A stretch of 64,000 nt of DNA from NCBI RefSeq assembly GCF_001941505.1, contig NZ_CP009248.1, positions 124,001 to 188,000 of the forward strand, given 5' to 3'. This document shows positions 21,528-38,331 of this stretch, in pieces. Made by a program: the position numbers and the translations under genes. Within the stretch, counting starts at the first letter, position 1; every line of letters starts with the position of its first letter. The notes under the pieces are model-generated. The model ran no database searches, was not told where the DNA came from, and saw nothing but the letters and a program-made list of their open reading frames with translations. The stretch comes from Corynebacterium sphenisci DSM 44792 (GTDB lineage Bacteria > Actinomycetota > Actinomycetes > Mycobacteriales > Mycobacteriaceae).

Positions 21528-22613
<1,086 letters not shown>

Positions 22614-22627
22614 GGTCCACGCATCCG

Positions 22628-22670
22628 GCGCGGGGCGCCGGCGGCCGGGGCGGCCGCCGGCGCCCCGCGC
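22628..22670 (+). terminator. Perfect 19-bp hairpin after asd
   Basis: The arms 22628-22646 and 22652-22670 are exact inverted complements around a five-base loop (GGGGC), and the stem is nearly all G-C. It begins 15 bases after the asd stop. There is no U-tract, so it may block exonucleases or work with Rho rather than act as a classical intrinsic terminator. Confidence 0.65.
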
Positions 22671-22855
22671 GATCCTGCGGCGCATCCGGTGCGGGCCCGC
22701 CGGATCGGGGTCGCCGGCGCCGGCGGCGCACCGGGCCCCGCGCGGGGGTGCGGCGGGGAGGGCCGGCCGGTTCGCGGGGCCCCCGGCGGGCCGCACCCCC
22801 TCCCGCGCGGGCCCCCGGATCCGGGGGGGAATTCGGGGGTGCATCGATAGTCCAT

Positions 22856-22879
22856 GCAATGTGATCCATCCCACATTGC
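22856..22879. promoter_or_regulatory. Crp/GlxR-like operator upstream of pilus cluster 1
   Basis: TGTGATCCATCCCACA (22860-22875) differs by one base from the TGTGA-N6-TCACA consensus of Crp/GlxR. It lies inside a perfect 8-bp inverted repeat, GCAATGTG...CACATTGC (22856-22863 and 22872-22879). It is about 245 bp upstream of the -35 box, too far for classical activation, but a similar box sits at a similar distance in cluster 2. Confidence 0.6.
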
Positions 22880-23119
22880 GATTGGTAACGCCCCCGACGT
22901 TGGGGGGTCCCGCGGAGGCCCGGGCCGCAGCCAAGGCGTTTCCGAGTGAAGCTTGAGGTCAGCCTTATCTTTCCTGCGTGCGTGCGGAAGTTTCGAAGGT
23001 TTCGCAGGGCGGCCCGCGGAGAACCCGGCGATGGGCGTGCCCTATCGCGGTTGCGCCGGCGGCGGCGACCCCGGGGGCGGGGATTCCGGCATCGTCCCAG
23101 CGTGAACGTCATTTTCGTG

Positions 23120-23148
23120 TTGTTGGGGGCCCGGCTGCCCCATAGGTT
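23120..23148 (+). promoter_or_regulatory. Promoter of pilus cluster 1
   Basis: TTGTTG (23120-23125) and TAGGTT (23143-23148) are spaced by exactly 17 bp. The cluster 2 promoter has the same layout (TTGCTT, 17 bp, TAGATT), each with CCA directly before the -10. Expected transcription start is about 23155. Confidence 0.65.
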
Positions 23149-23273
23149 CAGTCTCAGGTGCCGTGTCGGAAACCCCGTGACCCGACCCGGCGCGATGCGC
23201 CGGCGAGGGAGCCGACCGTCACCCGACCTGCCCGTCCCCCGGGAAAACCCCGGCATAGGAAAGAGCCCCGTAC

Positions 23274-24887
23274 ATGCACGCACAGCAACGCACCCTCCGG
23301 TCCGTGACCCTGACCGCCGTCTTCGGCCTCGCCCTGGGCGCCGGCGTCTACGGCATCCCCGAGGCCCTCGATCTCACCCCGACCGCCGTCGCCCAGGAGG
23401 CCGATGGCGAGGAGGGCGGCGCCGCCGACTCCGGCGAGGGAGGGGGTGAGGGCGAGGGCTCCGGTGAGGGCGAGGGCTCCGGCGAGGGCGCCTCCGAGGA
23501 GCAGGCCTCCACCATCGACTTCAACCGCACCGGCTCCATCACCGTGCACAAGCGCGCCGGGGAGAAGTCCGCCGATCGCGCCGACGGCAATGAGCTCGCC
23601 GACCCGCCCGGCACCCCGCTGGAGGGCGCCGAGTTCCGGGTCATCCTGATCAAGGCCTACGAGACCGCCGCCGACGTCACCGAGGGCCAGCAGCTCACCC
23701 TCGACGAGGCCCTGGCGCAGAAGGCGGGCAAGCCGGTCACCGACATCATCACCGACGCCGACGGCGTCGCCTCCTTCGAGGGCCTGGCCCTGGGCCGCTA
23801 CCTGGTCGAGGAGCTCTCCGCCCCCGAGGGCCACGTCCCCGGCGGCCCCTTCCTGGTCTCGGTGCCGATGACCAACCCGGCCACCCAGTCCGGCTGGAAC
23901 TACGACGTGCAGGTGTACCCGAAGAACACCGAGAACGCCGCCGAGAAGGCCGTGGTCGATGCCGGGAAGCACACCGGCGACGAGATCACCTACACCATCA
24001 CCTCGGACATCCCCACCCCCTCCGAGAACGGGCTGAGCAAGTACGTGGTCACCGACGACTACGACGGGACCATGGTCGAGATCGACCCCGCCAAGGTCAC
24101 CGCGGCGCTCTCCGACGGCACCGCGCTGACCCCCGGCGAGGACTTCACCGCGGAGCTCATCGAGGGCGAGGTCCGGGTGGCCTTCACCAAGGCGGGTCTG
24201 GCCAAGCTCTCCGAGAACGCCGAGGAGAAGGTGGTCACCACCATCCCCGCCACGGTGCTGGAGATCGACGGCGACGAGACCGTGCCCGAGGGCGAGGCCA
24301 CCGGCGGCGTGGTCGTGCCGAACACCGCCACGGTGACCTCCAACGAGGGCTCCGGCGGCCCCGACGGCAGCACCGACACCAACGAGGTGCAGACATACTT
24401 CGGCAAGCTGCGCGTGGAGAAGGCCGACGAGGATGCCACCCCGCTGGCCGACGCGAAGTTCGAGTTGTACAACTGCGCCTCCAAGGATGAGCTCGGCGAG
24501 CAGATCACCGTCGACGGCGCCACCGACTGGACCACCGGCGAGGACGGGTCGCTGACCATCAACGCGCTGCACGTCACCGACTACGCCGATGATGCCCCGG
24601 CCGGCCCCGCCAAGTACTGCCTGGTCGAGGTGGCGGCCCCGGAGGGCTACGAGCTGCTCGCCGAGCCGGTGGAGGTCGACTTCACCCGCGAGGCGATCGG
24701 CTACTCGGAGGGCGAGGGCGCCGTCGATGACTCGGTGACCCTGGTCAAGGACATCACCAACGTGAAGTCCACCGCCCCCTCGCTGCCGCTGACCGGCGGC
24801 ATGGGCATCGGGATCATCGCCGCCCTGGGCGCGCTGATCGTCGGCGCCGGCGCCTGGCTCGCCAAGCGCAACAACGCCAAGGCCTAG
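23274..24887 (+). CDS. Major pilin 1, SpaA-type LPXTG backbone subunit
   Basis: Backbone subunit of a sortase-assembled pilus, secreted and cross-linked to itself outside the membrane. The 537-residue protein has a Sec signal peptide (1-40, cleavage near AVAQEA). A low-complexity Gly/Glu insertion follows (about 41-77). The pilin motif WNYDVQVYPK has its cross-linking lysine at K217, and CnaB-type isopeptide domains follow. The E-box is YCLVEVAAPEGYELL, the sorting signal LPLTG is at 504-508, and a membrane helix and basic tail end the protein. The ATG follows AGGAAAGAGCCCC. It heads a pilin-sortase-minor pilin-tip operon, the same order as C. diphtheriae spaA-srtA-spaB-spaC. Long segments are nearly identical to major pilin 2. 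Confidence 0.95.
   Translation: MHAQQRTLRSVTLTAVFGLALGAGVYGIPEALDLTPTAVAQEADGEEGGAADSGEGGGEGEGSGEGEGSGEGASEEQASTIDFNRTGSITVHKRAGEKSADRADGNELADPPGTPLEGAEFRVILIKAYETAADVTEGQQLTLDEALAQKAGKPVTDIITDADGVASFEGLALGRYLVEELSAPEGHVPGGPFLVSVPMTNPATQSGWNYDVQVYPKNTENAAEKAVVDAGKHTGDEITYTITSDIPTPSENGLSKYVVTDDYDGTMVEIDPAKVTAALSDGTALTPGEDFTAELIEGEVRVAFTKAGLAKLSENAEEKVVTTIPATVLEIDGDETVPEGEATGGVVVPNTATVTSNEGSGGPDGSTDTNEVQTYFGKLRVEKADEDATPLADAKFELYNCASKDELGEQITVDGATDWTTGEDGSLTINALHVTDYADDAPAGPAKYCLVEVAAPEGYELLAEPVEVDFTREAIGYSEGEGAVDDSVTLVKDITNVKSTAPSLPLTGGMGIGIIAALGALIVGAGAWLAKRNNAKA
23445..23480 (+). repeat. 18-bp tandem repeat in major pilin 1
   Basis: Two exact copies of GGTGAGGGCGAGGGCTCC (23445-23462, 23463-23480), with a partial third copy after, encode repeated GEGEGS in the mature N-terminus. 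The second pilin lacks this tract. Confidence 0.9.
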
Positions 24888-24922
24888 GCCGCGGCGACCG
24901 GCCCGGGCCCGCCCGGGTCACC

Positions 24923-24957
24923 GCCGGCCGGCCCCCGCAACCGCGGGGTCGGCCGGC
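24923..24957 (+). terminator. Intercistronic hairpin between major pilin 1 and sortase 1
   Basis: Arms 24923-24938 and 24943-24957 pair almost fully around AACC, with one internal bulge or mismatch. They lie 35 bases after the pilin stop and 75 before the sortase start. There is no T-run. It probably acts as a partial terminator or mRNA stabiliser, giving more pilin than sortase; cluster 2 has an equivalent. Confidence 0.6.
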
Positions 24958-25031
24958 AGCCCCCATCACCCCCTTCCGCCCACCGCGGGGCACCCGCCCC
25001 GCCACGGTCAGCCCCAGCATCGGAGCCATCC

Positions 25032-25985
25032 ATGGACGCCGCCGACACCGGAGTCATCGTCGAGGAGACCCGGGCCGAGCCGTCCCGGCGCCAGGCCCGC
25101 ACGGTCCTCGCGCCGGCGCTGCTGGTGCTGCTCGGGCTGCTGGTGCTGCTCTACCCGGTGGTCGCCACCCAGTGGAACAACGCCAAGCAGCTCCGCGCCG
25201 CCCAGGAGTACTCCCGGATCGAGCAGAACATCGACCCGGCCAAGCTGTCCGCGGCCTGGGAGAGCGCCCAGCGCTACAACGCCGAGCGCGCCTCCGGGCC
25301 GATCCTGGACCCCTGGCTCTCCCGGGTCAGCGAGGACAACGCGGACTACCAGGCCTACCTCGCGGAGCTGAACCAGCAGGAGGCGATGGCCCGCCTGGTG
25401 GTGCCCGCGGCCATGGTGGACCTGCCGGTCTACCACGGTTCCACGGAGAAGGTGCTGCAGCGCGGGGTGGGCCACCTCTACGGCACGGATCTCCCGGTCG
25501 GCGGCCCGGACACGCACGCGGTGCTCACCGCGCACACCGGGCTGACCAACGCCACCCTCTTCGACAACCTCAAGGACGTCCACACCGGCGACGCCATCTA
25601 CGTCGCGGTGGCCGGGCAGCGCCTCAAGTACGAGGTGGAGTCCACCGAGGTGGTGCTGCCCGAGGAGACCGAGGGACTCGTGGTGCAGCCCGGCCGGGAC
25701 CTGATCACCCTGGTGACCTGCACCCCCTACGGGATCAACACGCACCGGCTGCTGGTCACCGGGCACCGGGTGCCGATGGACCCGGCCGATGAGGCGGGCT
25801 TCGCCGACTCCGGCCTGCACTGGCAGTGGTGGATGTGGGCGATCCTCGCCGCCGCCCTGCTGATCCTCGCCTGGTTGACCTGGTGGCTCATCCGGGCGCT
25901 GCGCGGCCGGCGCGCCGAAGCCGGCACCGACCCCGACCGGGTCCCCGACGGCGATTCCGCCGCGACCGAGGAGCACGACCGATGA
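25032..25985 (+). CDS. Class C sortase 1 (pilin polymerase)
   Basis: Membrane transpeptidase that joins the pilin LPLTG threonine to the pilin-motif lysine of the next subunit. The 317-residue protein has an N-terminal helix (about 25-46). The lid motif DPW (93-95) characteristic of class C pilus sortases is present. Catalytic H168 is in LTAHTG, C230 in TCTPYGINTHR, and R239 follows. A second membrane helix at about 265-290 and a charged tail complete it. ATG 25032 is preceded by CATCGGAGCC, conserved in front of sortase 2. The stop overlaps the minor pilin start (ATGA). Close paralogue of the sortase at 31823. Confidence 0.95.
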   Translation: MDAADTGVIVEETRAEPSRRQARTVLAPALLVLLGLLVLLYPVVATQWNNAKQLRAAQEYSRIEQNIDPAKLSAAWESAQRYNAERASGPILDPWLSRVSEDNADYQAYLAELNQQEAMARLVVPAAMVDLPVYHGSTEKVLQRGVGHLYGTDLPVGGPDTHAVLTAHTGLTNATLFDNLKDVHTGDAIYVAVAGQRLKYEVESTEVVLPEETEGLVVQPGRDLITLVTCTPYGINTHRLLVTGHRVPMDPADEAGFADSGLHWQWWMWAILAAALLILAWLTWWLIRALRGRRAEAGTDPDRVPDGDSAATEEHDR

Positions 25986-26803
25986 ACCAGCTGAACCTAT
26001 TCCGCCGTGTCACCGCCGCCGGGGCGGTGGCGGTGCTGGGCACGCTCGGCATGGCCGCCGGCGCGGCCGCGGACACCGTCACCGGCGAGGTCACCGGCCT
26101 CGACGCGGCGCAGGTCTCCGCGACCTGCCCCACCGTGGCGCTGACCATCCAGACCCCGATCCCGAACCCCTATGACGAGGTGCCCGCCGGCGAGAAGCCC
26201 CGTGGTCCGCTGTCCGGGACCGAGTTCACCGCGGAGCGCGTCGAGGGCATCGACCTGGACACCTCCGCCGGCTGGGTCGCCGCCCGGAAGATGACCGTCG
26301 GGGAGGCCGAGGCCGCGCCCAAGGACGCCACCGGCACCGCGACCACCGATGAGACCGGCGCCGCCCGCTTCGCGGCCCTGCCGCCGGGCCTCTACCTGGT
26401 CACCGTCACCACCCCCGAGGACCCCGCCTACTCCTACCCCGAGTACGCGCCCTTCCTGCTCACCCTGCCCACCGGGGCGGACGGCGAGTGGAACTGCGAG
26501 CCGGTGGTCTTCGCGAAGACCGAACCGGAGGAGGACCCGGGGGAGCCCGGTGAGCCGGGGGAGCCCGGTGAGCCGGGTGATCCGGGGAAGCCCGGTGACC
26601 CGGGTGATCCCGGCACGCCCGGTAAGCCCGGCACGCCGGGCAAGCCCGGCTCCCCGGGTGGCTCCGGCAAGCCCGGCTCCCCGGGCAGTCGGCTGCCCGT
26701 GACGGGCGCGCAGGTCACCGGGATCGCCGGGGCCGCGATCGTGCTCGTCGGCGCGGGCCTGCTCTTCATGCGGGTCGGCCGAAGGGACGCCGACGATGCG
26801 TAG
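25982..26803 (+). CDS. Minor pilin 1, SpaB-type, with collagen-like stalk
   Basis: A 273-residue LPXTG protein expected at the pilus base, ending polymerisation and anchoring the fibre to the wall. The signal peptide (1-30, cleaved near GAAADTV) is followed by one SpaB-like domain. Typical elements are [41 protein letters not shown] and a degenerate pilin motif [11 protein letters not shown], where K179 could be the acceptor lysine. Residues 186-235 are a Gly-X-Y repeat rich in E, K, D and P, not seen in the paralogue. The sorting signal is LPVTG (238-242), then a helix and an RVGRRD tail. ATG 25982 overlaps the sortase stop. Confidence 0.9.
26537..26686 (+). repeat. Collagen-like Gly-X-Y tract in minor pilin 1
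   Basis: About 16 consecutive Gly-X-Pro-type triplets ([15 protein letters not shown]) with one GGS interruption, built from 9-bp units such as GAGCCCGGT. Proline is in the Y position, which is unusual for bacterial collagens. A stiff proline-rich spacer is as likely as a triple helix. Confidence 0.85.
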
Positions 26804-26867
26804 GCGCGAGGACAGCAGCAGCGGACGCGGCGCCGAGGGCGCCGGCCGAGGAAAGGACGACGCCGCC

Positions 26868-29561
26868 ATGGCGACCCCCCGAAACGGATCCATCCGGCGG
26901 GCCCTGCCCCGCCGCGCCATCGCGCTGGTCTCGGTGAGTGCGATGCTCCTGCTGGGCGGCAACGCCGCCGGCGCGCAGGAGGCCATCCCCGCCGAGGAGA
27001 CCTCGACGACCACCGCGGAGCAGACCACCACCGCGGAGCCGACCACCGCGGAGACCACCACCGCCGACGTGCCGACCGCGGAGCCGAGCGCCGATCCGGC
27101 CCCCGCCGAGGATCCGGCCCCCGCGCCGGAGCCGGCCACCACCGAGCCCGCCCCGAGCACCGCCGAGGAGACCCCCGGGACCGGGGAGGGCGATGAGGCC
27201 ATCGCGGAGGAGGAACCGGAGGCCACCGAGGGGGACGACGGCGAGGCCGCCGAGGACGGGGGCTTCATCGAATCCGGGGAGCCGGTGGAGCTCCCCGGTC
27301 AGCTGAGCCCCGGCGCCGACCGGCCGACCCCCCGGATGGGCCGAGCCGGCGGCTATCCCGACTGGTTCACCGAGAACCCGGCACCGAACCCGTCGGCGCC
27401 GGTGCGCTGCGGGCTGCGGGTGGCCCTGGTCTTCGACCTCTCCGGCTCCATCGGGGCGGCGGGCGAGCAGGGGTCCCAGGACGCCGCCAACGGCGTGATC
27501 GACGAACTGGCCGGCACCCCCGCCGAGATCGGGATCTACAACTTCGCCTACGAGGGCGGCCAGGTCCCCCAGGCCACCGGCGGCCCCTACTCGATGCTCG
27601 ATGACGCCGATGTGGCCGCGGCCCGGAACAACGCCCAGAACCTGCGGCGGCCGAGCAACGCCTGGACCAACACCGAGGCCGGGGTCAAGGAGGTGCCGCT
27701 CGGGCTCTACGACATCGTCTACTTCGTCACCGACGGCAAACCGACCACGAACGACGCCCGCACCGGCGGCTACCCGATGGGCGCGCACGCCGCCGACGTC
27801 ACCGACGCCATCATCGCCGCCAACCGGCTCAAGGAGTCCGGCACCCGGATCGTGCCGATCGGGGTGGGGCTCGGCAACACCAAGTTCTTCCCCTACCGCA
27901 ATGACATCGAGGTCGGCTACCGCGCGACGAAGGTGCGGGATCGGCTCTACATCATCTACCAGGGCGGCGAAACCGTCGCCCGGTGGACCGGGAGCAGGTA
28001 CAAGGACTACTACCGGAAGAACGGCCGCAAGGAGTACTACCGGGATCATCCGGAGCTGTGGTCGGTGGAGGAGACCAACCCCTACAGCGGCCGCCGGCTG
28101 CTGCGCGACCTCTCCTCCCGGGACGCCCCCATCGAGGTGGACACCTACCAGGAGGTGCCGGTCCGGCTGGTCGAGCAGATCCTGGCCGGCTGCCGCGGCC
28201 GCGTCGACGTGACCAAGCGGATCGTCGACGACCAGGGCAATGAGCTCTCCCGCGGCGAAGGCTGGGAGTTCACCGCCAGCACCGCCGATCCGGTGCTGGA
28301 GGACGGCTCGGAGCGGGTCGACAGCCTCGCCCGGGTCACCGACGCCGAGGGCCGCACCGGTTTCCGGGTCGATGCCAAGAAGCCCCTGGAGGTGACGCTC
28401 ACCGAGACCGCCCAGGAGGGCTTCGCGCTCTCCCCGCAGGAGGGCAAGAACGCCCGCTGCTTCACCTCCAAGAACGGCAAGCGGGTGCCGGTCGAGGTGC
28501 GCGACAAGGGGGAGAACGGGTTCGCGGTGACCATGCCGGAGCTGAAGAACCGGCTCGGCGCGGTGGACTGCATCGTGGACAACCGCGAGGTGCCCACGGC
28601 GGCGGCCCGCAAGGAGCCCGTGCTCGGCGAACCGGTGCAGGTCAACCCGGACGGCACCGCGGAGCTGAGCTACACGGTCACCGTGGCGAACCCCTCCACC
28701 GCCAACGAGGCCGCCGCCGGCGAGCTCTTCGACATCATCCGCCTGCCCGCCGATGTGGTCGCCGCCGGTGACGCCACCGTCGCCTTCGCCGAGGTCGACG
28801 GGGTGGAGGTGACCGGGCCAACGGCCACCATCGCCCAGGCGGAGCTGACCCGGGACAGCCGGGTGCGCCTGGCCGAGTCGGCCACCCTGGCCCCGGGCAA
28901 GGAGCTGCCGGTGACGGTGACCATCCCGGTGCAGGTCGAGGACATCGCCGGCGCGGACTGGGATCGGCTGGGCCGCTGCGAGGGCGACGGGTCGACCGTC
29001 TCCCCGGTGGGCGTGCCGAACTCGGTGGAGCTGGCCGGCGACGAGGATCCGGCCGATGACAACGCCTGCATCCCGCTGACCCCGCCGCGGGAGGCGGTGG
29101 TGAACATCGCCAAGGTGGACAACGAGGACACGCTCACGCCGCTCGACGGCTCCGAGTTCGCCCTCTACGGCTCCACCCCGGACGGGTCCATCGACTGGGA
29201 TGACCGGATCACCGGCGGGCCGGGCAACGATCGCCTCGCCGAGGGCGTGCGCGAGGGCCGCTACCACCTGGTGGAGACCAAGGCCCCGGAGGGCTACGCC
29301 CTGCTGGCCAGCCCGGTGGCGGTCGAGGTCACCGGCCACGCCGAGGGCTACACCATCGCCCTGGCCGATGACGCCGACGGCGGCCTGGTCGCGGTCGGCC
29401 CGGGTGAGGAGGACGCCGCCGCCGATGAGCTGTGGGTGCGGGTCGCCGACCTGACCACCGGCACCCTGCCCAAGACCGGCGGCACCGGGCCGGCGCCCTT
29501 CGCGCTGGCCGCGCTGCTGGCCTTCGCCGCGGCCCTGGCCGCCCGGCGGCGGCTGAGCTAG
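26868..29561 (+). CDS. Tip adhesin 1, SpaC-type vWA-domain LPXTG protein
   Basis: A large (897-residue) adhesin expected at the pilus tip. It has a signal peptide (to about residue 36) and a Thr/Glu/Pro-rich low-complexity region (about 40-160). A vWA domain follows with MIDAS DLSGS at 190-194 and TDGKPT. CnaB-type domains ([20 protein letters not shown] and [17 protein letters not shown]) come next. An E-box, [15 protein letters not shown], precedes LPKTG at 867-871, a helix and RRRLS. ATG 26868 is chosen because GGAAAGGACG precedes it. An upstream in-frame ATG at 26796 overlaps the minor pilin stop and would add 24 polar residues before the signal peptide. Ligand unknown. Confidence 0.92.
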
Positions 29562-29580
29562 CCGCCCGCGCGACCCCGTG

Positions 29581-29614
29581 ACCGGGGCCGGTCCCCTGGA
29601 CCGGCCCCGGTTCT
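29581..29614 (+). terminator. Terminator of pilus cluster 1
   Basis: A perfect 14-bp stem (29581-29594 against 29598-29611) with a CCT loop, 20 bases after the tip adhesin stop and followed by TCT. It separates the two clusters. Confidence 0.8.
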
Positions 29615-29671
29615 CGCGTGTCCGGCCCCGGCCACCGGCGATAGGGGGTGCGAATGGGGGTGATTTGTGAT

Positions 29672-29687
29672 TGTGGCGCAGCCCACA
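29672..29687. promoter_or_regulatory. Crp/GlxR-like operator upstream of pilus cluster 2
   Basis: TGTGGCGCAGCCCACA is a perfect TGTGG-N6-CCACA palindrome, one base per half-site from TGTGA-N6-TCACA. It lies about 260 bp upstream of the cluster 2 -35 box, close to the distance seen in cluster 1. Confidence 0.5.
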
Positions 29688-29948
29688 GCAATCATGAAAA
29701 GCGCAATCTCATATGGGAAACGGTATTTCTCCGCCGGGGGTGACCCGCATGCCCCCCGCGTGGGTTGACCGTGATTCGCCCCTTTGCGTCGATGCAGCTC
29801 ATATCGGGTGGGCGGGCCGGGCGCACCCCCGCATGCGCGGATCGGTGGGGTCCGCCAGGTCCGGGAAGGGGGTGGGCGGCGGTCGCCCAGTCGTAGCGCG
29901 GTGCTGCATCGTCCCAGTTCAACGGCGTTGTCTTCGCTCATCGGGGAA

Positions 29949-29977
29949 TTGCTTGCGGGGCGGGTGAACCATAGATT
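29949..29977 (+). promoter_or_regulatory. Promoter of pilus cluster 2
   Basis: TTGCTT (29949-29954), a 17-bp spacer ending in ACCA, and TAGATT (29972-29977). Expected start of transcription is about 29984. Confidence 0.65.
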
Positions 29978-30154
29978 CGGAGTAGGTGTCGTCCCGGGTG
30001 ACCCGGACGATCCGGTGCCCGGCCGGGCACCCGGCGCCCCCCTGGGGCAGGCCGGAGGCGGCGGCCGGCGAGGGCGGATGTCCCCATTCGCCGGTCGACC
30101 ACCCCAGAATCTCATCACCCCGGGGTTCGCCCCCATCCAGAGAGAGTGACCCAT

Positions 30155-31666
30155 ATGCACACTGACCGTCGTTTCACCCGGCCCGCGGCCAGCGCCGCGA
30201 TCCTCGGCCTCGCGCTGACCACCGGCGTCTTCGCCGCCCCGGCGAGCCTCGACCTGGCCCCCGCCGCCGTGGCCGTGGAGCCGCCGAGCGCCTCCGACCA
30301 GGCCGCCACCATCGACTTCGACAAGCCCGGCTCCATCACCATCCACAAGCGCGCCGGCGAGAAGACCGACAACGGCGCCGACGGCAATGAGCTCGCCGAC
30401 CCGCCCGGTACCCCGCTCAATGGCGTGGAGTACAAGATCACCCTGATCCGGGCCTACGACTCCGCCGAGGATGTCGTCGCGGGCCAGCAGCTCACCCTGG
30501 AGAAGGCCCTGGCGCAGAAGGAGGGCAAGCAGCCCCGGACGGGTACCACGGAGGGCGATGGCGTCGTCTCCTTCGAGGGTCTGAAGGTGGGCCGCTACCT
30601 CGTCGAGGAGATCTCCGCCCCCGCCGGCCACGTCCCCGGCGGCCCCTTCCTGGTCTCGGTGCCGATGACCAACCCGGCCACCCAGTCCGGCTGGAACTAT
30701 GACGTGCAGGTGTACCCGAAGAACACGGAGAACAAGGCCGAGAAGGCCGTGGTCGACGCCGGGAAGCACACCGGCGACGAGATCACCTACACCATCACCT
30801 CGGACATCCCCACCCCGGCGACGGGCGGCCTGGCGAAGTACGAGATCGTCGACGACTACGACGAGAACATGGTCGAGATCGACCCCGCCAAGATCACCGC
30901 GGCGCTGGACAACGGCACCGCGCTGACCCCCGGCGAGGACTTCACCGCGGCGGAATCGGGCGGCACGGTCACGGTCACCTTCACCGAGGCGGGCCTGAAG
31001 AAGCTCAGCAAGGGCCACGAGGCCCGGGTGGTCACCACCATCCCGGCGACCGTCAAGGAGATTCCGGAGGGCGCCGAATCGAACGTCGGCGAAGGCCTCG
31101 GCGGGGTCGCGGTGACCAACACCGCCACGGTGACCTCCAACGAGGGCTCCGGCGGCCCCGACGGCAGCACCGACACCAACGAGGTGCAGACCATCTTCGG
31201 CAAGCTGCGCGTGGAGAAGGTCGGCGAGGGGGACAAGCCCCTGAACGGCGCGGTCTTCGAGCTCTACAACTGCTCCACCAAGGACGATCTCGGCGACAGG
31301 ATCAGCGTCGCCGGGGAGAACACCTGGACCACCGTGGACGGGCAGGCGACCATCAACGCGCTGCACATCACCGACTTCGCCGATGACAAGGAGGGCGATT
31401 CGGGCAAGTACTGCCTCGTCGAGGTCGAGGCCCCCGCCGGCTACGAGCTGCTCGCCGAGCCGGTGGAGGTCGACTTCAGCCGCACCGCCCTCGGCGAGGA
31501 GGGCGGCGACGGGGTGACGCTCACCAAGAAAATCACCAACGTGGAGTCCACCGCCCCCTCGCTGCCGCTGACCGGCGGCATGGGCATCGGGATCATCGCC
31601 GCCCTCGGCGCGCTCATCATCGGCGCCGGCGTGTGGCTCGCCAAGCGCAACGGCACCAAGGCCTAA
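30155..31666 (+). CDS. Major pilin 2, SpaA-type LPXTG backbone subunit
   Basis: A 503-residue paralogue of major pilin 1. It has a signal peptide (1-40), the pilin motif WNYDVQVYPK with K189, CnaB-type domains, an E-box YCLVEVEAPAGYELL, LPLTG at 470-474, and a helix and tail almost identical to pilin 1. The acidic Gly/Glu insertion of pilin 1 is absent. ATG 30155 lies eight bases after AGAGAGAG; a GTG at 30146 in the same frame is less well placed. DNA identity to pilin 1 is very high around the pilin motif (about 30625-30815), the NEGSGGPDGSTDTNEVQT segment and the 3' end, and lower elsewhere. This suggests duplication followed by selection for variation or gene conversion. Confidence 0.95.
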   Translation: MHTDRRFTRPAASAAILGLALTTGVFAAPASLDLAPAAVAVEPPSASDQAATIDFDKPGSITIHKRAGEKTDNGADGNELADPPGTPLNGVEYKITLIRAYDSAEDVVAGQQLTLEKALAQKEGKQPRTGTTEGDGVVSFEGLKVGRYLVEEISAPAGHVPGGPFLVSVPMTNPATQSGWNYDVQVYPKNTENKAEKAVVDAGKHTGDEITYTITSDIPTPATGGLAKYEIVDDYDENMVEIDPAKITAALDNGTALTPGEDFTAAESGGTVTVTFTEAGLKKLSKGHEARVVTTIPATVKEIPEGAESNVGEGLGGVAVTNTATVTSNEGSGGPDGSTDTNEVQTIFGKLRVEKVGEGDKPLNGAVFELYNCSTKDDLGDRISVAGENTWTTVDGQATINALHITDFADDKEGDSGKYCLVEVEAPAGYELLAEPVEVDFSRTALGEEGGDGVTLTKKITNVESTAPSLPLTGGMGIGIIAALGALIIGAGVWLAKRNGTKA

Positions 31667-31724
31667 GGCGCCCGCCATGCCGCCGGCCGAGGCCCCCGGG
31701 GTATCCCGGGCGCCCCGGTCAACC

Positions 31725-31755
31725 CCCGCCGGCGGCGGCATTCGCCGCCGGCGGG
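31725..31755 (+). terminator. Intercistronic hairpin between major pilin 2 and sortase 2
   Basis: A perfect 13-bp stem (CCCGCCGGCGGCG, 31725-31737, against 31743-31755) with loop GCATT, 59 bases after the pilin stop. No T-run. Same position as the hairpin of cluster 1 but different sequence, which argues for a conserved role in setting pilin-to-sortase ratio. Confidence 0.65.
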
Positions 31756-31822
31756 TAATCCCCATATGACATCCCCAAAGCGCGGGCGCCCGCCCGCGCG
31801 AACCCCAGCATCGGAGCCGTCC

Positions 31823-32803
31823 ATGACCATGGACAACGCCAGCGTCGCCGTCGACCACGCCGCGCCGGATGAGCCCAAGCGCGATCTCAAGCGCGTCCTG
31901 GCGCCGGTGGCCCTGGTGCTGCTGGGCCTGGTCATCCTGCTCTACCCGGTCATCGCGACCCAGTGGAACAACGCCAAGCAGGTCCGGGCCGCCCAGGAGT
32001 ACTCGAAAATCGAGCAGAACACCGATCCGGCGAAGCTCTCCGCGGCGTGGGAGAGCGCCCACCGCTACAACGCCGAACGCGCCTCCGGGCCGATCCTGGA
32101 TCCCTGGCTGGCGCGGATCAGCGAGGACAACACCGACTACCGGGCCTACCTCGCGGAACTGGACCAGCAGGAGGCGATGGCCCGCCTGGTGGTGCCCGCG
32201 GCGAAGGTGGACCTGCCGGTCTACCACGGCACCTCCGAGAAGACGCTGCAGCGCGGGGTCGGCCACCTCTACGGCACCGATCTCCCCGTCGGCGGGGAGG
32301 GCACCCACGCGGTGCTCACCGCGCACACCGGGCTGGCCAACGCCACCCTCTTCGACAACCTCAAGGACGTCCGGGAGGGCGACGCCATCTACGTCGCGGT
32401 GGCCGGGCAGCGCCTCAAGTACGAGGTGCACGCCACCGAGGTGGTGCTTCCCGAGGAGACCGACGCCCTCGCCGCCGTCGCGGACGAGGACCTGATCACC
32501 CTGGTCACCTGCACCCCCTACGGGATCAACACGCACCGGCTGCTGGTCACCGGGCACCGGGTGCCGATGGACCCGGCCGATGAGGCTGATCTCGCCGACT
32601 CCGGCCCGGCCTGGCAGTGGTGGATGTGGGCCATCCTCGCCGGGGCGGCGCTCATCATCGCCTGGCTGGTGTGGTGGCTGCGCCGGATGCTCCGCGCCGG
32701 CGGTCCCGGGGAGGCCGGCGGGGACGACCCCGCGGACGCCCCGGAGGACCCGGGGGCCGGGCCCGCCGGGGACGCGGCCGGGCCGACGGGGGACCCGCGA
32801 TGA
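31823..32803 (+). CDS. Class C sortase 2 (pilin polymerase)
   Basis: A 326-residue paralogue of sortase 1. With ATG 31823 as start, the lid DPW (93-95), H168, C230 and R239 fall at the same residue numbers as in sortase 1. Two membrane helices flank the catalytic domain, and the C-terminal tail is longer and Gly/Asp/Pro-rich. The sequence CATCGGAGCC before the start is conserved with sortase 1. The region from about residue 215 to 258, including TCTPYGINTHRLLVTGHRVP, is nearly unchanged at DNA level. It should polymerise pilin 2, but the near-identical active sites make cross-use of pilins plausible. It overlaps the next gene by ATGA. Confidence 0.95.
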   Translation: MTMDNASVAVDHAAPDEPKRDLKRVLAPVALVLLGLVILLYPVIATQWNNAKQVRAAQEYSKIEQNTDPAKLSAAWESAHRYNAERASGPILDPWLARISEDNTDYRAYLAELDQQEAMARLVVPAAKVDLPVYHGTSEKTLQRGVGHLYGTDLPVGGEGTHAVLTAHTGLANATLFDNLKDVREGDAIYVAVAGQRLKYEVHATEVVLPEETDALAAVADEDLITLVTCTPYGINTHRLLVTGHRVPMDPADEADLADSGPAWQWWMWAILAGAALIIAWLVWWLRRMLRAGGPGEAGGDDPADAPEDPGAGPAGDAAGPTGDPR

Positions 32804-33660
32804 CCGCCCGGATCCGCCGCCGCGCCGCCGCCGCGGCGATCGCCGCACTCGGCCTCGCCGCCGCACCGGCGGCCGCCGCCACCGCGGCGATCGCCGCACT
32901 CGGCCTCGCCGCCGCACCGGCGGCCGCCGCCACCGTCACCGGCGAGGTCACCGGCCTCGACGCCGCCGACATCGCCGGGGCCTGCCCCAGCGCGGGCCTC
33001 ACCATCCGGCTGCCGGAGCCGAACCCCTACGATGACGTCCCCGCCGGCGAACTGCCCCCCGGGCCGCTCGCCGGGGTGGAGTTCACCCTCCGGCCCGTCG
33101 AGGGCGTGGACCTGACCACCGCGGCCGGCTGGGTCGCCGCCCGCGGGATGAGCGTCGCCGCCGCCGAGGCCGCCGCCGGCGACGTCGCCGCGGCCGCGGT
33201 CACCGACGAGGGCGGCGCCGCGGCGTTCCCGGGACTGCGCCCCGGCCTGTACCTGGTCACCGTGCGCGCCCCCGAGGACCCGGGGCACTCCTACCCGGAC
33301 CTCCGGCCCCTGCTCATCACCGTGCCGGTCGGCGCCGACGGCGCCTGGGACTGCCATCCGGTGGTCTTCGCCAAGGCCGACCCCGGCGAGGGGCCCGGCC
33401 CCGATCCGGAGCGCCCGCCGTGGCCCACCCCCTGGCCCGGGGAACCCGACCCCGGGACCCCGCCGCCGAGCACCCCGGCGGCGCCCGGGGACCCCGGCGG
33501 AACCGACGCCCCCGGCGCACCCGGCGCCCCCGGGTCCCCGGGCAGCCCGCTGCCGGTCACCGGCGCCGCGGTCGCCGGCATCGCCGGCGCCGCCCTGCTG
33601 CTGCTCGGCGCGGGCCTGCTGGCCATGCGCCTCGGCCGGCGGGGGGATCGGGATGACTGA
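32800..33660 (+). CDS. Minor pilin 2, SpaB-type, with duplicated signal peptide segment
   Basis: A 286-residue paralogue of minor pilin 1. The SpaB-like domain has [39 protein letters not shown] and a degenerate pilin motif ending VVFAK (K192). A Pro-rich, non-collagen linker (about 196-248) leads to LPVTG at 251-255, a helix and a basic tail. The signal peptide region is unusual. AAIAALGLAAAPAAAAT occurs twice in tandem, so the hydrophobic stretch is about double length with two possible cleavage sites. ATG 32800 overlaps the sortase 2 stop. Likely role: base anchor of pilus 2. Confidence 0.88.
   Translation: MTARIRRRAAAAAIAALGLAAAPAAAATAAIAALGLAAAPAAAATVTGEVTGLDAADIAGACPSAGLTIRLPEPNPYDDVPAGELPPGPLAGVEFTLRPVEGVDLTTAAGWVAARGMSVAAAEAAAGDVAAAAVTDEGGAAAFPGLRPGLYLVTVRAPEDPGHSYPDLRPLLITVPVGADGAWDCHPVVFAKADPGEGPGPDPERPPWPTPWPGEPDPGTPPPSTPAAPGDPGGTDAPGAPGAPGSPGSPLPVTGAAVAGIAGAALLLLGAGLLAMRLGRRGDRDD
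32833..32934 (+). repeat. 51-bp perfect tandem duplication in the signal peptide of minor pilin 2
   Basis: Copies at 32833-32883 and 32884-32934 are identical base for base and keep the frame, each encoding 17 residues of hydrophobic core plus an AAAAT cleavage-like end. Absence of any difference suggests a recent event or ongoing slippage. Confidence 0.95.
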
Positions 33661-33720
33661 CCCGACCGCCGCCGGCACCCCGCCCACCGCCCGCCCCACC
33701 ACGACAAGGACGGTCGCCCC

Positions 33721-36474
33721 ATGGTGAACCCCTTCGATCTGCCCGGCCTCCGCCCGGCCCGCCGCCTGCTGGCGGTGATCGCCGCCTCGGCCCTGCTGTG
33801 CGGCGGCGGCGGGGCGGCCCTCGCGCAGGAGACCATCCCGCCGGAGGACGCGGCCACGACCACCACGACCACCGAGACCACCGAGACCACCGGGACCACG
33901 ACGACCCCGGAACCGGACCCGCCGGCGACGACCCCGTCGACGACCCGGGAGCCGATCCCCGACGCCGCGGACCCGGCGCCGCCCGCCGACCCGGACCCCG
34001 CCCCCGCGGAGGAGCCCACCGAACCCCCGGCGGAGGGGATCCCCGCCGAGGACGCCCCGGCCGGGGAGCCCGATCCGGGGGCGGGGGACGTCCCCGAGGA
34101 CGCCGTCGTCGGCGAGCTGGCCCCGGTCTCCGAGGCCGAGGCCCAGGACGGGCTGCAGCCGCGCACCCGCTCCCGCGCCGCGCGCACCCGGCGCGCCGGC
34201 TACTCCCCGCCGCCGTGGCTGAACCCCAAGCCCGCGGCGAACCCGCAGGTGCCGGCCCGGTGCGGGCTGCGCATCGCGCTGGTCTTCGACCTCTCCGGCT
34301 CCATCGGCGATGAGGGGGTGCGCGAATCCCGCCGCGCCGGCGACGCCGTCGTCGACGCCCTCGCGGGCAGCCCCACCGAGATCGGCGTGTACAACTTCGC
34401 CACGAAGGCCCCGGCGATCCCGGGGGCCGTCACCGACGGGGCGGTGCCCGTCGCCGACGCCGCCGGGGTGGCCACGGTCAAGCGCGCCATCTCCCGGATG
34501 GCGAAGGCGCCGAAGGACCTCGACGGCACGAACTGGGACGGGGGCCTGCGGCAGGTGCCCACCGGCGCCTACGACATCGTCTACTTCATCACCGACGGGG
34601 TGCCCACCGCCGATGACGCCGGCACCGGCCTGGACTACAACGGCTCCGTGCCGCACGCCTCCGATCTGGGGCACGCGGTCGGCCAGGCGAACCGGCTCAA
34701 GGCCGGCGGCACCAGGATCGTGCCGCTGCTGGTGGGAAACCCCTCGCGCGGCTACCACCTCTTCCGCGATGACGTGCTGCGCGCCGACATCGTGGAGAAC
34801 GACCCCGACCTGGAGTACGTCAAGAACGAGTTCTACTTCGGCCTGGCCAAGCCCAACAGCTGGGGCGCCGACGCCACCGGGCTCTTCGTCGCCCGCTGGG
34901 GCGGGCTGATGCTGCGCAAGAAGGAGGGGATCCGGGATTACGTGAACCTTCCGGAGCGCTGGTCCATCAACCCCGAGACCCGGCACAGCGCCGGGGACAT
35001 GACCCGGGACATCTCCTCCCCGGAGGCCCCGGTGTCGGTGGCGTCCTACGCCAGCCTCGCGACGGACCTGCGCGCGCAGGTCACCGGGCCCTGCAACGGC
35101 CGGGTGAACATCACCAAGCGGATCGTCGACGACGAGGGCAATGAGCTCTCCCGCGGCAAGGGCTGGGAGTTCACCGCCACCACCGCCGACCCGGTGCTGG
35201 AGGAGGGCTCCGGCACCGCCGCCGAGGTGCGCGGGCGCACCGACGCCGAGGGCGCCGTGGGCTTCCGCGTCATCTCCGATCGGGCGCAGCAGGTCACCGT
35301 GCGGGAGACCGCCCGGCCCGGGTTCGCGCTGCGGCCCCGCGACGGCCGCAACGCGGTGTGCACCACCTTCGACGGCGGCAAGCGCATCCCGGTGCCGGTG
35401 ACCGACGTCGGCGAGGACGGGTTCCGGGTGCGGTTGACCGCCGACGGCGGGGTCCTGGCCTCCGTCGACTGCGTGGTGGACAACCGCAAGACCGCCGCCG
35501 CGCAGGCGGCGAAGACCCCGGTCGCCGGGGAGCCGGTGCGGGTCAACCCGGACGGCACCGCCGACCTGGAGTACACGATCACCGTCTCCAACCCGGAGGC
35601 CGCGGCGGAGGCCCGCGGTGCCGACCTCGGCGACGTGCCGCGGCTACCGGAGGGCGTCGTCGCCGACGGCGACGCCGTGATCGAGGCCCCCGACACCCCC
35701 GGCGTGGTCATCGAGGGCCTCCGGGACCGGATCCCCAGGGCCGAGGTCGACGCCGGCCGGCGCGCCCCGATCGCCGACGCGATCACGCTGCCCGGCGGCG
35801 CCGTGCAGAGGTTCACGGTGACCCTGCCGGTGAAGGTGGTCGAACCGGCCACCGCGGACTGGGATCGGCTGGGCCGCTGCGACGGCGACGCCTCGGTGAC
35901 CTCCCGCACCGGGGTGCCGAACGGGGTGCGCCTGGTCGGGGACCTCGACGCCGGCGACGACAACGCCTGCATCCCGCTGGCCCCCGCCGAGGAGGCCACG
36001 GTGCGGATCACCAAGGTTGACGCCGATGACGAGGAGGCGCCGCTCGGCGGATCCGAGTTCGCGCTCTACGGGTCCACCCCGGACGGGTCCATCGACTGGG
36101 ATGAGCGGATCACCGGCGGCGCCGGCAACGCCACCCTCGCCGAAGGGGTGCGGCAGGGCCGCTACCACCTGGTGGAGACCAGGGCCCCGGAGGGCTACGC
36201 CCTGCTGGCCAGCCCAGTGGGGGTCGACGTCACCGGCCACGCCGAGGGCTACACCATCGCCCTGGCGGATCCGGCGGATGGCGCATTGGTGCAGGTCGGG
36301 CCGGGTAATCCGGCGCAGGCGGACCGGACGCTGACGGTGCGGGTCGCCGACATCGCCAGCGGCGCGCTGCCCAAGACCGGTGGCGCCGGGGTGGCGCCGC
36401 ATGCCGCGGCGGCCGCGTTGGCGCTGCTCGCGGGGCTGGTCCTGGCGCACCGGGCACGACGCAGAATGGGGTAG
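33721..36474 (+). CDS. Tip adhesin 2, SpaC-type vWA-domain LPXTG protein
   Basis: A 917-residue paralogue of tip adhesin 1. It has a signal peptide (to about residue 36, ALAQE) and a Thr/Pro/Glu-rich region. A vWA domain with MIDAS DLSGS at 190-194 and ITDGVPT follows. CnaB-like domains ([37 protein letters not shown]) and the E-box [15 protein letters not shown] come next. LPKTG is at 883-887, then a helix and RARRRMG. The middle of the vWA domain (about 230-400) differs greatly from tip 1, while the C-terminal stalk is nearly the same, so binding specificity has probably diverged. ATG 33721 follows ACAAGGACGGTCGCCCC. It ends cluster 2. Confidence 0.92.
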   Translation: MVNPFDLPGLRPARRLLAVIAASALLCGGGGAALAQETIPPEDAATTTTTTETTETTGTTTTPEPDPPATTPSTTREPIPDAADPAPPADPDPAPAEEPTEPPAEGIPAEDAPAGEPDPGAGDVPEDAVVGELAPVSEAEAQDGLQPRTRSRAARTRRAGYSPPPWLNPKPAANPQVPARCGLRIALVFDLSGSIGDEGVRESRRAGDAVVDALAGSPTEIGVYNFATKAPAIPGAVTDGAVPVADAAGVATVKRAISRMAKAPKDLDGTNWDGGLRQVPTGAYDIVYFITDGVPTADDAGTGLDYNGSVPHASDLGHAVGQANRLKAGGTRIVPLLVGNPSRGYHLFRDDVLRADIVENDPDLEYVKNEFYFGLAKPNSWGADATGLFVARWGGLMLRKKEGIRDYVNLPERWSINPETRHSAGDMTRDISSPEAPVSVASYASLATDLRAQVTGPCNGRVNITKRIVDDEGNELSRGKGWEFTATTADPVLEEGSGTAAEVRGRTDAEGAVGFRVISDRAQQVTVRETARPGFALRPRDGRNAVCTTFDGGKRIPVPVTDVGEDGFRVRLTADGGVLASVDCVVDNRKTAAAQAAKTPVAGEPVRVNPDGTADLEYTITVSNPEAAAEARGADLGDVPRLPEGVVADGDAVIEAPDTPGVVIEGLRDRIPRAEVDAGRRAPIADAITLPGGAVQRFTVTLPVKVVEPATADWDRLGRCDGDASVTSRTGVPNGVRLVGDLDAGDDNACIPLAPAEEATVRITKVDADDEEAPLGGSEFALYGSTPDGSIDWDERITGGAGNATLAEGVRQGRYHLVETRAPEGYALLASPVGVDVTGHAEGYTIALADPADGALVQVGPGNPAQADRTLTVRVADIASGALPKTGGAGVAPHAAAAALALLAGLVLAHRARRRMG

Positions 36475-36483
36475 CGGCTGTGC

Positions 36484-36531
36484 AAACGGCACCGGGGCCG
36501 GTAATATCCGGCCCCGGTTCCACACCGTTTT
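36484..36531 (+). terminator. Terminator of pilus cluster 2
   Basis: Core stem ACCGGGGCCGG (36491-36501) against 36508-36518 with loop TAATAT. AAACGG (36484-36489) and CCGTTT (36525-36530) extend the pairing, so the 3' side ends in CCGTTTT, a usable U-tract. Confidence 0.8.
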
Positions 36532-36594
36532 CGGCTGGCGCGACGTCCGCGGGGAGCGGCTCCCCATGGCAGCAGACGCAAGGACGTACCACCG

Positions 36595-38301
36595 ATGACC
36601 CCCAGCACGGGAACCCCCCGCCCCCGGCTCGCCGCCGCCGCCACGGCACTGCTCCTGGCCCTGGCCGCCCCGCCGCCGGCGCAGGCCCAGCCGCCCGCCG
36701 ATGATCCGGAGGCGACGACCTCCCCGACGCCGACCGAGGATCCGATCCCCCCGACGGAGGATCCCGAGGACGGGACGCCGACGGAGGATCCCGGGGACGG
36801 GACGCCGACGGAGGATCCCGGGGACGGGACGCCGACGGAGGATCCCGGGGCCGGGGCCCCGGGGGAGGACGACGAGGACCCCGGCGACCCCGGCGGCACG
36901 ATCGGCTGGGACAACGGGACCGGGGACGACCCGGGGGACCAGGACCCGCCGCCGCGGCCGGCCCCACCGCGCCCCGGGCCCGCCCCGCAGCCCGCGCTGC
37001 CGATCCCCGATGGTCCCGGCGGCTACGCCCCGGACGTGCCCGCGCCCGGCCCCGGGGACGTCCTGCCCCCGGTGAACCAGGAGGTCGTCGACGGGGTGGT
37101 GGTCACCGAGGAGCGGGACCCGGAGGTGCCCGATGACGCCGACCTGGGCACCGTGTACGGCCCCCGGCCGGACATGGGCGGTCCGCTGCCCGCGGAGATC
37201 CCGAGGAACCCGGACCGGCAGGCGGACAAGGTCCCGCCGGAGTGGTTCGGCGAGGCCCCGGAGGGCAACCCGAAACCGCACTCGACCTGCGGGGGCTCGG
37301 TGGCGCTGGTGCTCGACGTGTCCGACTCCGCCGGGGAGCGCGGCATCGAGGCCTTCAAACGGGCCGCGAAGGCGGCCGTGGACGTCCTCGCCGGGACCTC
37401 CGCGAGCGTCGGCGTCTACGATTTCGGCACGAAGGCCCCGGCGAACCCGAAGGTCGCCGGCGGCCCCTTCCCGGTCGCCGATGAGGGGGACGTGGCGAAG
37501 CTGAAGGACCGGATCGACCGGATCGGGGCCGGCGAACCCGGCGGCACGAATTGGGAGGGCGGCCTGGCGCAGGTGCCCGCCCAGACGTACGACGTGCTCT
37601 ACCTGCTCACCGATGGTGCGCCGACCACCAACAACGTGCGCACCGGCGGCGATTTCGGGGTGGCCCCGCATGCCGCGGACCTCTCCGCCGCGGTGGCCGC
37701 GGCGAATGTGCTCAAATCCACCGGCACCCGAATCGTGCCCGTGCTGGTGGACGCCGACGAGGACCCGGTGTACTTCGTCAACGACGACATCCCGCTGTTC
37801 AGCGCGAAGGTCAGGGAACCCGAGGTGGAGGGGATCTACCTGGCCCAGCAGGGCGAGGGCCCGGCCTTCATCGGCCGCCATGACGGGACGGCGCCGAACC
37901 CCTACCCCGGCGGGGTCGGCCCGGGGCCGGCCCCGGTGGACCCGGTGACCGGGGAGATCCTCGGGGAGGCGGCGGAGCCGCCGCGCTACGACGATGAGCC
38001 GGAGGCCTGGTCGGTGAACCCGGAGGCGCCGCGCTACCCGCTGCAGATGGCCCGGGACGTGTCCTCCTACGGGGCGCCGGTGGCGGTGCAGTCCTACGCC
38101 GAGGTCGCCACGGCGCTGCGCGAGGAGATCGACGCGGGCTGCACCGGGGCCGCCGCGGCGGCGGTGGACGCCACCGCGACGAGCTCCCCGACGCGCCGGG
38201 CGCTGCCCTGGATCGCCGGTGGCGTGGCGGCGGTCCTGGTGGCCGCGGCGACCGCGGTGGCGCTGATTCGCCGGCGGCGGCGCAGGGAGCTCATGGGCTA
38301 G
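36595..38301 (+). CDS. Secreted, membrane-anchored vWA-domain protein without a clear LPXTG signal
   Basis: A 568-residue relative of the two tip adhesins. It has a signal peptide (1-32, AQAQPP), a Pro/Asp/Glu-rich region with nine-residue repeats, and a vWA domain. The MIDAS is intact (DVSDS at 241-245, TNWEGG, LLTDGAPTTN). The protein ends soon after the vWA domain, with no CnaB stalk. The C-terminus has a helix (about 535-557) and an Arg-rich tail. The expected sorting signal is replaced by ALPWIAGG, so it is probably held in the membrane rather than wall-linked. ATG 36595 follows CAAGGACGTACC. It lies behind cluster 2 after a terminator, so it has its own or a read-through transcript. Possible cell-proximal adhesin; function inferred. 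Confidence 0.8.
   Translation: MTPSTGTPRPRLAAAATALLLALAAPPPAQAQPPADDPEATTSPTPTEDPIPPTEDPEDGTPTEDPGDGTPTEDPGDGTPTEDPGAGAPGEDDEDPGDPGGTIGWDNGTGDDPGDQDPPPRPAPPRPGPAPQPALPIPDGPGGYAPDVPAPGPGDVLPPVNQEVVDGVVVTEERDPEVPDDADLGTVYGPRPDMGGPLPAEIPRNPDRQADKVPPEWFGEAPEGNPKPHSTCGGSVALVLDVSDSAGERGIEAFKRAAKAAVDVLAGTSASVGVYDFGTKAPANPKVAGGPFPVADEGDVAKLKDRIDRIGAGEPGGTNWEGGLAQVPAQTYDVLYLLTDGAPTTNNVRTGGDFGVAPHAADLSAAVAAANVLKSTGTRIVPVLVDADEDPVYFVNDDIPLFSAKVREPEVEGIYLAQQGEGPAFIGRHDGTAPNPYPGGVGPGPAPVDPVTGEILGEAAEPPRYDDEPEAWSVNPEAPRYPLQMARDVSSYGAPVAVQSYAEVATALREEIDAGCTGAAAAAVDATATSSPTRRALPWIAGGVAAVLVAAATAVALIRRRRRRELMG
36754..36861 (+). repeat. 27-bp in-frame tandem repeats in the vWA protein
   Basis: Four units start at 36754, 36781, 36808 and 36835. 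Units 2 and 3 are identical, unit 1 differs at one base and unit 4 has diverged. They encode TEDPGDGTP repeats in the extracellular linker. Confidence 0.9.
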
Positions 38302-38317
38302 CCCCCCGAACGGGGGC
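38301..38317. terminator. Short hairpin between convergent vWA gene and sigC
   Basis: GCCCCC and GGGGGC arms around CGAAC-type loop bases lie directly after the vWA stop and 15 bp before the sigC stop. Short and without a T-run; it may serve both directions. Confidence 0.4.
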
Positions 38318-38331
38318 GGCGCCGGGGTCGC

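Follow-up and report, generated by a model that had tools for sequence, protein, structure and literature searches.

Two Spa-type pilus operons and a third vWA gene between asd and sigC in Corynebacterium sphenisci

Gene content of the asd–sigC interval

The window analysed here, a stretch of 64,000 nucleotides comprising bases 124001-188000 of the 2,594,799-bp single-contig genome of Corynebacterium sphenisci DSM 44792, carries two pilus operons and an extra gene for a von Willebrand factor A (vWA) protein between asd and sigC (Table 1). An earlier note on this DNA had placed a 15.7-kb gap between the two flanking genes at 22614..38331, and both boundaries proved exact, the asd stop lying at 22613 on the plus strand and the sigC stop codon starting at 38332 on the minus strand. 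Nine coding genes occupy the interval, all on the plus strand and with sigC convergent to them: backbone pilin, class C sortase, base pilin and tip pilin, the same four repeated, and the third vWA gene. The two complete pilus operons and the additional vWA gene named in that note are borne out by family profiles and motifs. With the starts as chosen, the intergenic gaps among the nine genes are 660 bp, 593 bp and five of at most 144 bp, while, from the chosen ATG starts, the sortase gene of each operon runs 4 bp into the base gene that follows it, and base 1 runs 8 bp into tip 1; for backbone 2, the list of open reading frames (ORFs) has a GTG start at 30146. A strong hairpin lies behind each of asd, tip 1 and tip 2, which suggests three transcription units, namely operon 1, operon 2 and the third vWA gene; a promoter/terminator pattern scan gave zero matches. 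With the SigC model PRK09649, sigC scores 193 bits, under the cut-off of 219.

Table 1. Features of the asd–sigC interval and its flanks (window coordinates)
Feature	Position	Strand	Evidence
asd, left flank	21579..22613	+	translation; matched in 200/201 genus genomes
Hairpin, 20-bp GC, possible terminator without U-tail, right after asd	22628..22670	+	77-nt fold -60.6 kcal/mol, z -2.85
DtxR-like palindrome upstream of operon 1	22954..22972		14/19 to the consensus
Backbone pilin 1, 537 aa, WNYDVQVYPK pilin motif, E-box, LPLTG	23274..24887	+	NF033902 3.6e-105; motif scan
Class C sortase 1, 317 aa	25032..25985	+	NF033745 273.2 bits, cut-off 160
Base pilin 1, 273 aa from chosen ATG, collagen-like stretch, LPVTG	25982..26803	+	profile search, motif scan
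Tip pilin 1, 921 aa, MIDAS DLSGS, SpaA domain, LPKTG	26796..29561	+	PF17802 4.5e-10; motifs
Hairpin after tip 1, possible terminator	29580..29612	+	79-nt fold z -3.48
Backbone pilin 2, 503 aa, pilin motif and LPLTG as copy 1	30155..31666	+	NF033902 1.9e-108
Class C sortase 2, 345 aa	31766..32803	+	NF033745 278.3 bits, cut-off 160
Base pilin 2, 286 aa from chosen ATG, LPVTG	32800..33660	+	profile search, motif scan
Tip pilin 2, 917 aa, MIDAS DLSGS, SpaA domain, LPKTG	33721..36474	+	PF17802 1.1e-10; motifs
Hairpin after tip 2, resembles post-tip-1 hairpin by eye	36491..36518	+	120-nt gap fold z -2.59
Third vWA gene, 568 aa, no LPXTG	36595..38301	+	motif scan, repeat search, profiles, alignment, model
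sigC, right flank	38332..38889	-	NCBIfam PRK12535 313.4 bits (cut-off 290)

The two backbones score 352.8 and 363.6 bits with the SpaH/EbpB-type backbone model NF033902 (cut-off 95), and the motif scan found the WNYDVQVYPK motif, the E-box and LPLTG in both, as it found the LPVTG sorting signal in both base pilins. In the tips, the metal ion-dependent adhesion site (MIDAS) is present as DxSxS plus invariant Thr and Asp columns of the alignment, together with a prealbumin-type SpaA domain (PF17802), the Pfam VWA profile PF00092 staying under its cut-off (E 0.042 for tip 1 and 0.12 for tip 2). The nearest solved chains are 4hss and 3uxf for the backbone and 2xwg and 5k9a for the sortase. Besides the two class C sortase genes, the genome holds a third sortase-domain gene, of class E (213.3 bits, cut-off 160). 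Both operons are thus, as predicted from sequence, Spa-type class C sortase pilus clusters, an ordinary and known kind of pilus. Within base pilin 2, a 51-bp direct repeat (32823-32924, 98% identical) duplicates part of the signal peptide and looks like recent slippage.

The duplicated operon unit and the third vWA gene

In the repeat search, operons 1 and 2 appear as matched blocks at offsets of 6779-6901 bp that run from the backbone through the tip and are 71-89% identical. The proteins of copy 1 and copy 2 share 70% identity in the backbone, about 75-76% in the sortase (75-93% in six middle 40-residue blocks), 63% in the base and 51% in the tip. The mutual identity of the sortase copies exceeds the best found in the 200 other genus genomes (at most 62% among the matches listed), and in the protein search P0127 reaches 69% identity to the window sortase over 77% of the query (P, L and G numbers are our handles for proteins, junction stretches and genomes). 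These in-register blocks show the two operons to be one 6.8-kb unit present as a head-to-tail duplicate, and not two arrivals, a relation that the earlier note had not remarked.

The duplication was probably an event of the window's own lineage, as indicated by a comparison of synonymous divergence (dS) between the copies (backbone 0.24, sortase 0.31, base 0.59, tip 0.53) with that between the window and its relative L004 (asd 0.64, katA 0.41, sigC 0.82), although a GC content at third codon positions (GC3) near 0.96 makes the dating rough. Three proteins filed as C. sphenisci represent a second strain, namely backbone P0002, sortase P0125 and the third-vWA homologue P0122; each has a longest contig of 44,640 bp, so they presumably lie on one contig. 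Both window copies and the filed protein form a clade in the sortase tree (99/98) and in the backbone tree (100/100), within which P0125 groups with sortase copy 1 (100/99; 90% identity to sortase 1) and P0002 with backbone copy 2 (96/91; 69% identity to backbone 1 and 72.5% to backbone 2), which suggests that the duplication predates the split of the two strains. In the protein searches, backbone 1 is missing from the best 120 of 774 in the backbone 2 search, sortase 1 is present in its own, and P0124 of the sortase search stands for three clustered members without a contig assignment.

Where residues are conserved, identical codons are more frequent in backbone plus sortase (321/392) than in base plus tip (301/464; p 2.5e-8), and either conversion or constraint could explain it. 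Along backbone P0002, blocks resembling copy 1 alternate with blocks resembling copy 2 (p 0.0008 in both the maximum chi-square and the runs test, on 103 informative sites), but this signal was gone on the 20 sites polarised with nine outgroups (p 0.24, 0.37); sortase P0125 equals copy 2 at 12 of 67 sites, again in blocks (none of 10,000 shuffles had so few runs), but of these 12 just 2 look derived. Gene conversion between the copies is suggestive only. The near equality of non-synonymous and synonymous divergence in the backbone pair (dN 0.229, dS 0.236) was rejected as a signal of positive selection, because the high GC3 compresses dS.

The third vWA protein has a layout, read from its sequence, of a Pro-rich stalk, the vWA domain, a hydrophobic C-terminal stretch and an Arg tail. 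Its Pro/Glu/Asp-rich stalk is encoded by 27-bp tandem repeats (36724-36885) that differ in the matching part of P0122, and its MIDAS residues D241, S243, S245, T318 and D340 are invariant in six aligned proteins. The motif scan found no LPXTG sorting signal in it, and NCBIfam anchor-like models gave only E values of 0.013-0.04, under cut-off. The tip blocks D3 and D15 of the repeat search recur in the gene at 60 and 70% identity, and a search with residues 71-568 scored the window tips at 177 and 157 bits and the best match in the 200 other genus genomes, to the vWA part, at 115 bits. At E <= 1e-35, 0 of 241 other genus genomes hold a homologue, and of 7996 candidates scored from 5.8 billion proteins, three pass 1e-3: the protein itself, P0122 and P0123. 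P0122 (463 aa, with a different C-terminus) is identical to it at 391 of 461 aligned residues. The structural model, built from six sequences, is poor overall (mean predicted local distance difference test score 51.7) with a confident vWA core, which aligns to pilus tips and about equally well to other vWA proteins; since non-pilus vWA proteins score about as high, the fold alone is no proof of a pilus role.

The third vWA protein is best read as a diverged and shortened tip paralogue that no longer joins a fibre, and the prediction is that it stays membrane-held rather than serving as a pilus tip. Its place behind the operon 2 hairpin, its matches to the tips in D3 and D15, its lack of a sorting signal, and the shorter P0122 with its differing C-terminus would also fit a functionless, decaying remnant of a third operon copy, as would the codon identity to tip 1 at conserved residues, which at 0.58 is little above the 0.51 of chance and so marks the gene as old. 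However, such a remnant seems rather unlikely to us, as the gene keeps a 568-codon open frame with a GC3 of 0.944 and its MIDAS residues, and the identity shared with P0122 argues for selection on the vWA part.

The junction across the genus and its history

A match to asd was found in all but one of the 201 genus genomes, the window's own among them. The survey of the junction took in 140 of the other 200, with at most 20 kb of sequence downstream of asd from each, the remaining 60 mostly having a less similar asd. The flank order asd, sigC, katA, which the earlier note had likened to that of C. glutamicum, is widespread: downstream of asd, 136 of the 140 stretches have sigC and 124 have katA, and not every stretch was long enough to reach them; in L052 and L071 the katA match comes before sigC. 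The median asd–sigC gap is 1945 bp, and the empty sites that the note proposed to look for are present, with a gap under 200 bp in 24 of 136 stretches. The commonest contents, named from sequence, are a membrane-protein gene, mostly on the minus strand (56 loci), and a ferrochelatase-like gene (31 loci). Sortase and backbone together occur at the junction in 14 of the 140 (L005, L007, L009, L012, L013, L041, L065, L078, L079, L091, L095, L109, L137 and L141, of which the L007 and L141 stretches end before sigC). This is a lower bound, counting only relatives of the window proteins at E <= 1e-5, and it counts genomes with near twins included (L078/L079, L091/L141); it falls short of the majority of corynebacteria that would have marked pilus genes at this site as ancestral.

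The operons at the junction differ in their order, according to ORFs and motif scans: backbone, sortase, base and large adhesin follow each other in the window, L005, L009, L013 and L091, and with extra genes in L095, whereas the adhesin precedes backbone and sortase in L041, L078, L109 and L137. The junctions of L092 and L123 hold only a giant adhesin (1835 and 1825 aa, with DxSxS and LPKAG-type signals) and no sortase or backbone match. Judged by coordinates, five genomes outside the 140 (G149, G159, G040, G061 and G114) have a class C sortase on the strand of asd, 5-7 kb downstream of it. On these contents and on the tree below, asd–sigC is taken to be a recurrently used pilus site, neither ancestral in most species nor filled in a single event. 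Pilus genes between asd and sigC were unnamed in the titles and abstract openings of open-licence papers, searched without asd itself as a term. In G055, G068 and G098, pilus genes also stand on the other side of asd, where a second class C sortase is encoded on the opposite strand some 3 kb upstream. Class C sortases 4-12 kb apart on the same strand occur in at least seven other genomes (G113, G129, G031, G148, G011, G171 and G052), and tandem pilus clusters as such are therefore not rare.

On a species tree built from asd, sigC and katA (139 rows, with L006 and L031 omitted and two adhesin-only rows uncounted), the presence of pilus genes at the junction needs at least six gains or losses, and likewise by the starred branches alone. 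The four nearest relatives of the window, L004, L008, L010 and L020, have asd–sigC gaps of 110, 1029, 101 and 2163 bp with no pilus match at the junction, in keeping with an island absent from the closest genomes; when class C sortases were searched for, G112 and G163, two of the four, gave only weak matches (1.2e-6, 4.3e-7), and the other two (G174, G079) are not among the genomes with a match. The next five relatives carry pilus genes at the junction. The picture of a single island specific to the window is not supported, given the at least six changes, the several lineages and gene orders, and the two operons being one duplicated unit. In the sortase tree (with L041, L065, L078 and L095 included, and without L079, the twin of L078, and the repeat rows L225 and L228), sortases from other loci (L227, L231 and L233) nest inside the group of the neighbours (91/80; 99/92 in the first tree; whole group 100/99), and operons thus seem to move between sites. 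The pilus lineage of the window, judged by the topology tests below, differs from that of the neighbouring clade.

Vertical inheritance would explain the distribution by a junction pilus operon in the ancestor of the ten-genome clade, kept in the window and five relatives and lost in four. Five of the nine other members of this clade, whose Shimodaira-Hasegawa-like approximate likelihood ratio test (SH-aLRT) value is 100, do carry pilus genes at the junction, and the order backbone, sortase, base and tip recurs in the three annotated, L005, L009 and L013. However, forcing the window proteins into the group of the neighbours costs 20.8 log units for the sortase and 40.7 for the backbone, with p values of 0.022 and 0.0087 in the approximately unbiased (AU) test, in which the groups were seen beforehand, and the sortases of L227, L231 and L233, from other loci, fall inside that group; we consider inheritance of this kind improbable. 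The backbone test placed the window with L007, L009, L012, L013, L095 and P0058, the backbone of L005 being absent, and the backbone tree omits L228, L225 and L079, a single row of L065 and every row no longer than 380 aa. A further test, which tied the window to no rows but those of the five neighbours (p 2.5e-5), was judged unfair and not used, since those neighbours have other rows nested between them.

Several points weigh against our reading, in which an operon of another lineage came to the junction and was duplicated there as a unit. The AU tests give moderate values, and the groups they compare were set with the first tree already in view, although vertical inheritance predicts these groups independently. 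The clade of the window and its four pilus-less relatives is weak (SH-aLRT 83, FastTree 0.61), and the rows L005, L007 and L012 of the species tree fill just 33-43% of the columns. Loss in the four relatives with replacement in the window fits as well as direct gain, and the two cannot be told apart. In addition, the upstream regions of operons 1 and 2 align poorly save for a shared 12-mer, and the two operons may therefore be regulated apart.

The composition of the island resembles that of its surroundings, as had been claimed: the GC fraction is 0.739 in the island, 0.745 in the left flank and 0.758 in the right, against 74.9% for the whole window and the 74.7 mol% that PMC8733736 gives for C. 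sphenisci. The codon-usage shift that was to be looked for at its edges shows no clear break, since the distances to eight flank genes overlap, although the values are somewhat higher for the island genes (0.068-0.157) than for the flank genes themselves (0.053-0.112, leave-one-out), and short genes inflate the value. The lack of an integrase, a transposase and a tRNA site also stood: no integrase or transposase is among the nine island genes (the family search covered these and not the gap and opposite-strand ORFs), no tRNA gene lies between 8952 and 49379, and exact repeats between the edges (22561-22960 against 38241-38400) reach at most 11 bp and are GC-rich. An origin that is old, or from another corynebacterium, is possible, and among named entries the closest sortases and backbones are those of Corynebacterium. 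A single recent horizontal island bringing both operons at once from a distant donor, to which the four relatives without a pilus match and the location of C. pseudotuberculosis pilus clusters in predicted islands (PMC3544762, in an excerpt) would lend some colour, is very improbable, given the agreement in GC, a divergence of the copies not far below that from the nearest species, the relatives that sortase 1, backbone 2 and the third vWA gene have in the second C. sphenisci strain, and the absence of an integrase among the nine genes, of a tRNA and of a long edge repeat.

A proposed account of the locus

Based on these findings, we propose, as a probable account, that a Spa-type pilus operon of a corynebacterial lineage came into the asd–sigC junction of the window's lineage, probably through recombination between the conserved flanks, a route proposed because no mobile-element gene was found. 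The operon would then have been duplicated head to tail as the 6.8-kb unit, apparently with its hairpin, as the likeness by eye suggests. From knowledge of the family, each copy would encode a covalent pilus: the class C sortase would join backbone subunits through the pilin-motif lysine and LPLTG, the vWA tip would cap the fibre, and the LPVTG base pilin would be handed to the one other sortase of the genome, that of class E, for wall anchoring. Given near-identical pilin motifs and backbone signals and conserved sortase blocks, against tips of only 51% identity, it is most likely that a single assembly chassis serves both copies and that the adhesive tip is what sets them apart. The third vWA protein would be a diverged tip paralogue, without a sorting signal and staying in the membrane.

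This account yields a testable statement at the level of the genus, namely that a junction of housekeeping genes is filled repeatedly by different pilus operons, here without recognisable mobility genes. If recombination between the flanks is the route, it would explain the swapping of adhesins in corynebacteria, while the tandem copy would offer a natural example of how shaft and tip diversify, and the third gene an example of a vWA protein cut off from the fibre. A bolder version, in which the junction is a genus-wide docking place with entire operons swapped through the flanks and no integrase involved, tandem cassettes recombining into mosaic shafts and the membrane-held vWA paralogue, released from the fibre, in a new role, is speculative, and we give it a low probability.

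The gene order of the SpaA-type cluster is spaA-srtA-spaB-spaX-spaC (PMC3544762, excerpt), and as far as that excerpt describes the cluster of C. diphtheriae and C. pseudotuberculosis, the window operons resemble it in the order of backbone, class C sortase, base and tip, apart from spaX. The pilin motif, the E-box, the LPXTG signals and the separate class E sortase gene are also alike, whereas the two tandem copies, the missing spaX, the third vWA gene and the asd–sigC site are not. The type 2 fimbriae of Actinomyces oris combine, according to part of PMC11389406, one shaft with the alternative tips FimB and CafA, which share a sorting signal. Tips 1 and 2 of the window likewise share LPKTG-type signals, but tip exchange is only inferred here and each tip has its own shaft gene. 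In the pneumococcal rlrA islet, as stated in a portion of PMC2576445, exposed pilus subunits diverge, sortases are more conserved, and the operon recombines; the window subunits also diverge more than the sortases, although the evidence there is population data, and here it is the pair of copies of a single genome plus a handful of proteins from another strain. Compared with the tips Mfa5, SpaC of L. rhamnosus GG, RrgA and GBS104, the third vWA protein lacks LPXTG, no SpaA domain was found in it, and it has the Pro-rich stalk and hydrophobic C-terminus instead.

A minor observation concerns the region upstream of operon 1. The DtxR-like palindrome there, 302 bp from the start codon, is the best in the 64-kb window (next 12/19), and when the mononucleotides of both upstream regions were shuffled 1000 times, its score was reached twice, although it had been noticed by eye before the test. 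In a C. diphtheriae dtxR mutant, srtC is, within the part of PMC5784534 consulted, the sole sortase or pilin gene changed. Iron control through DtxR of operon 1 alone is a possible lead.

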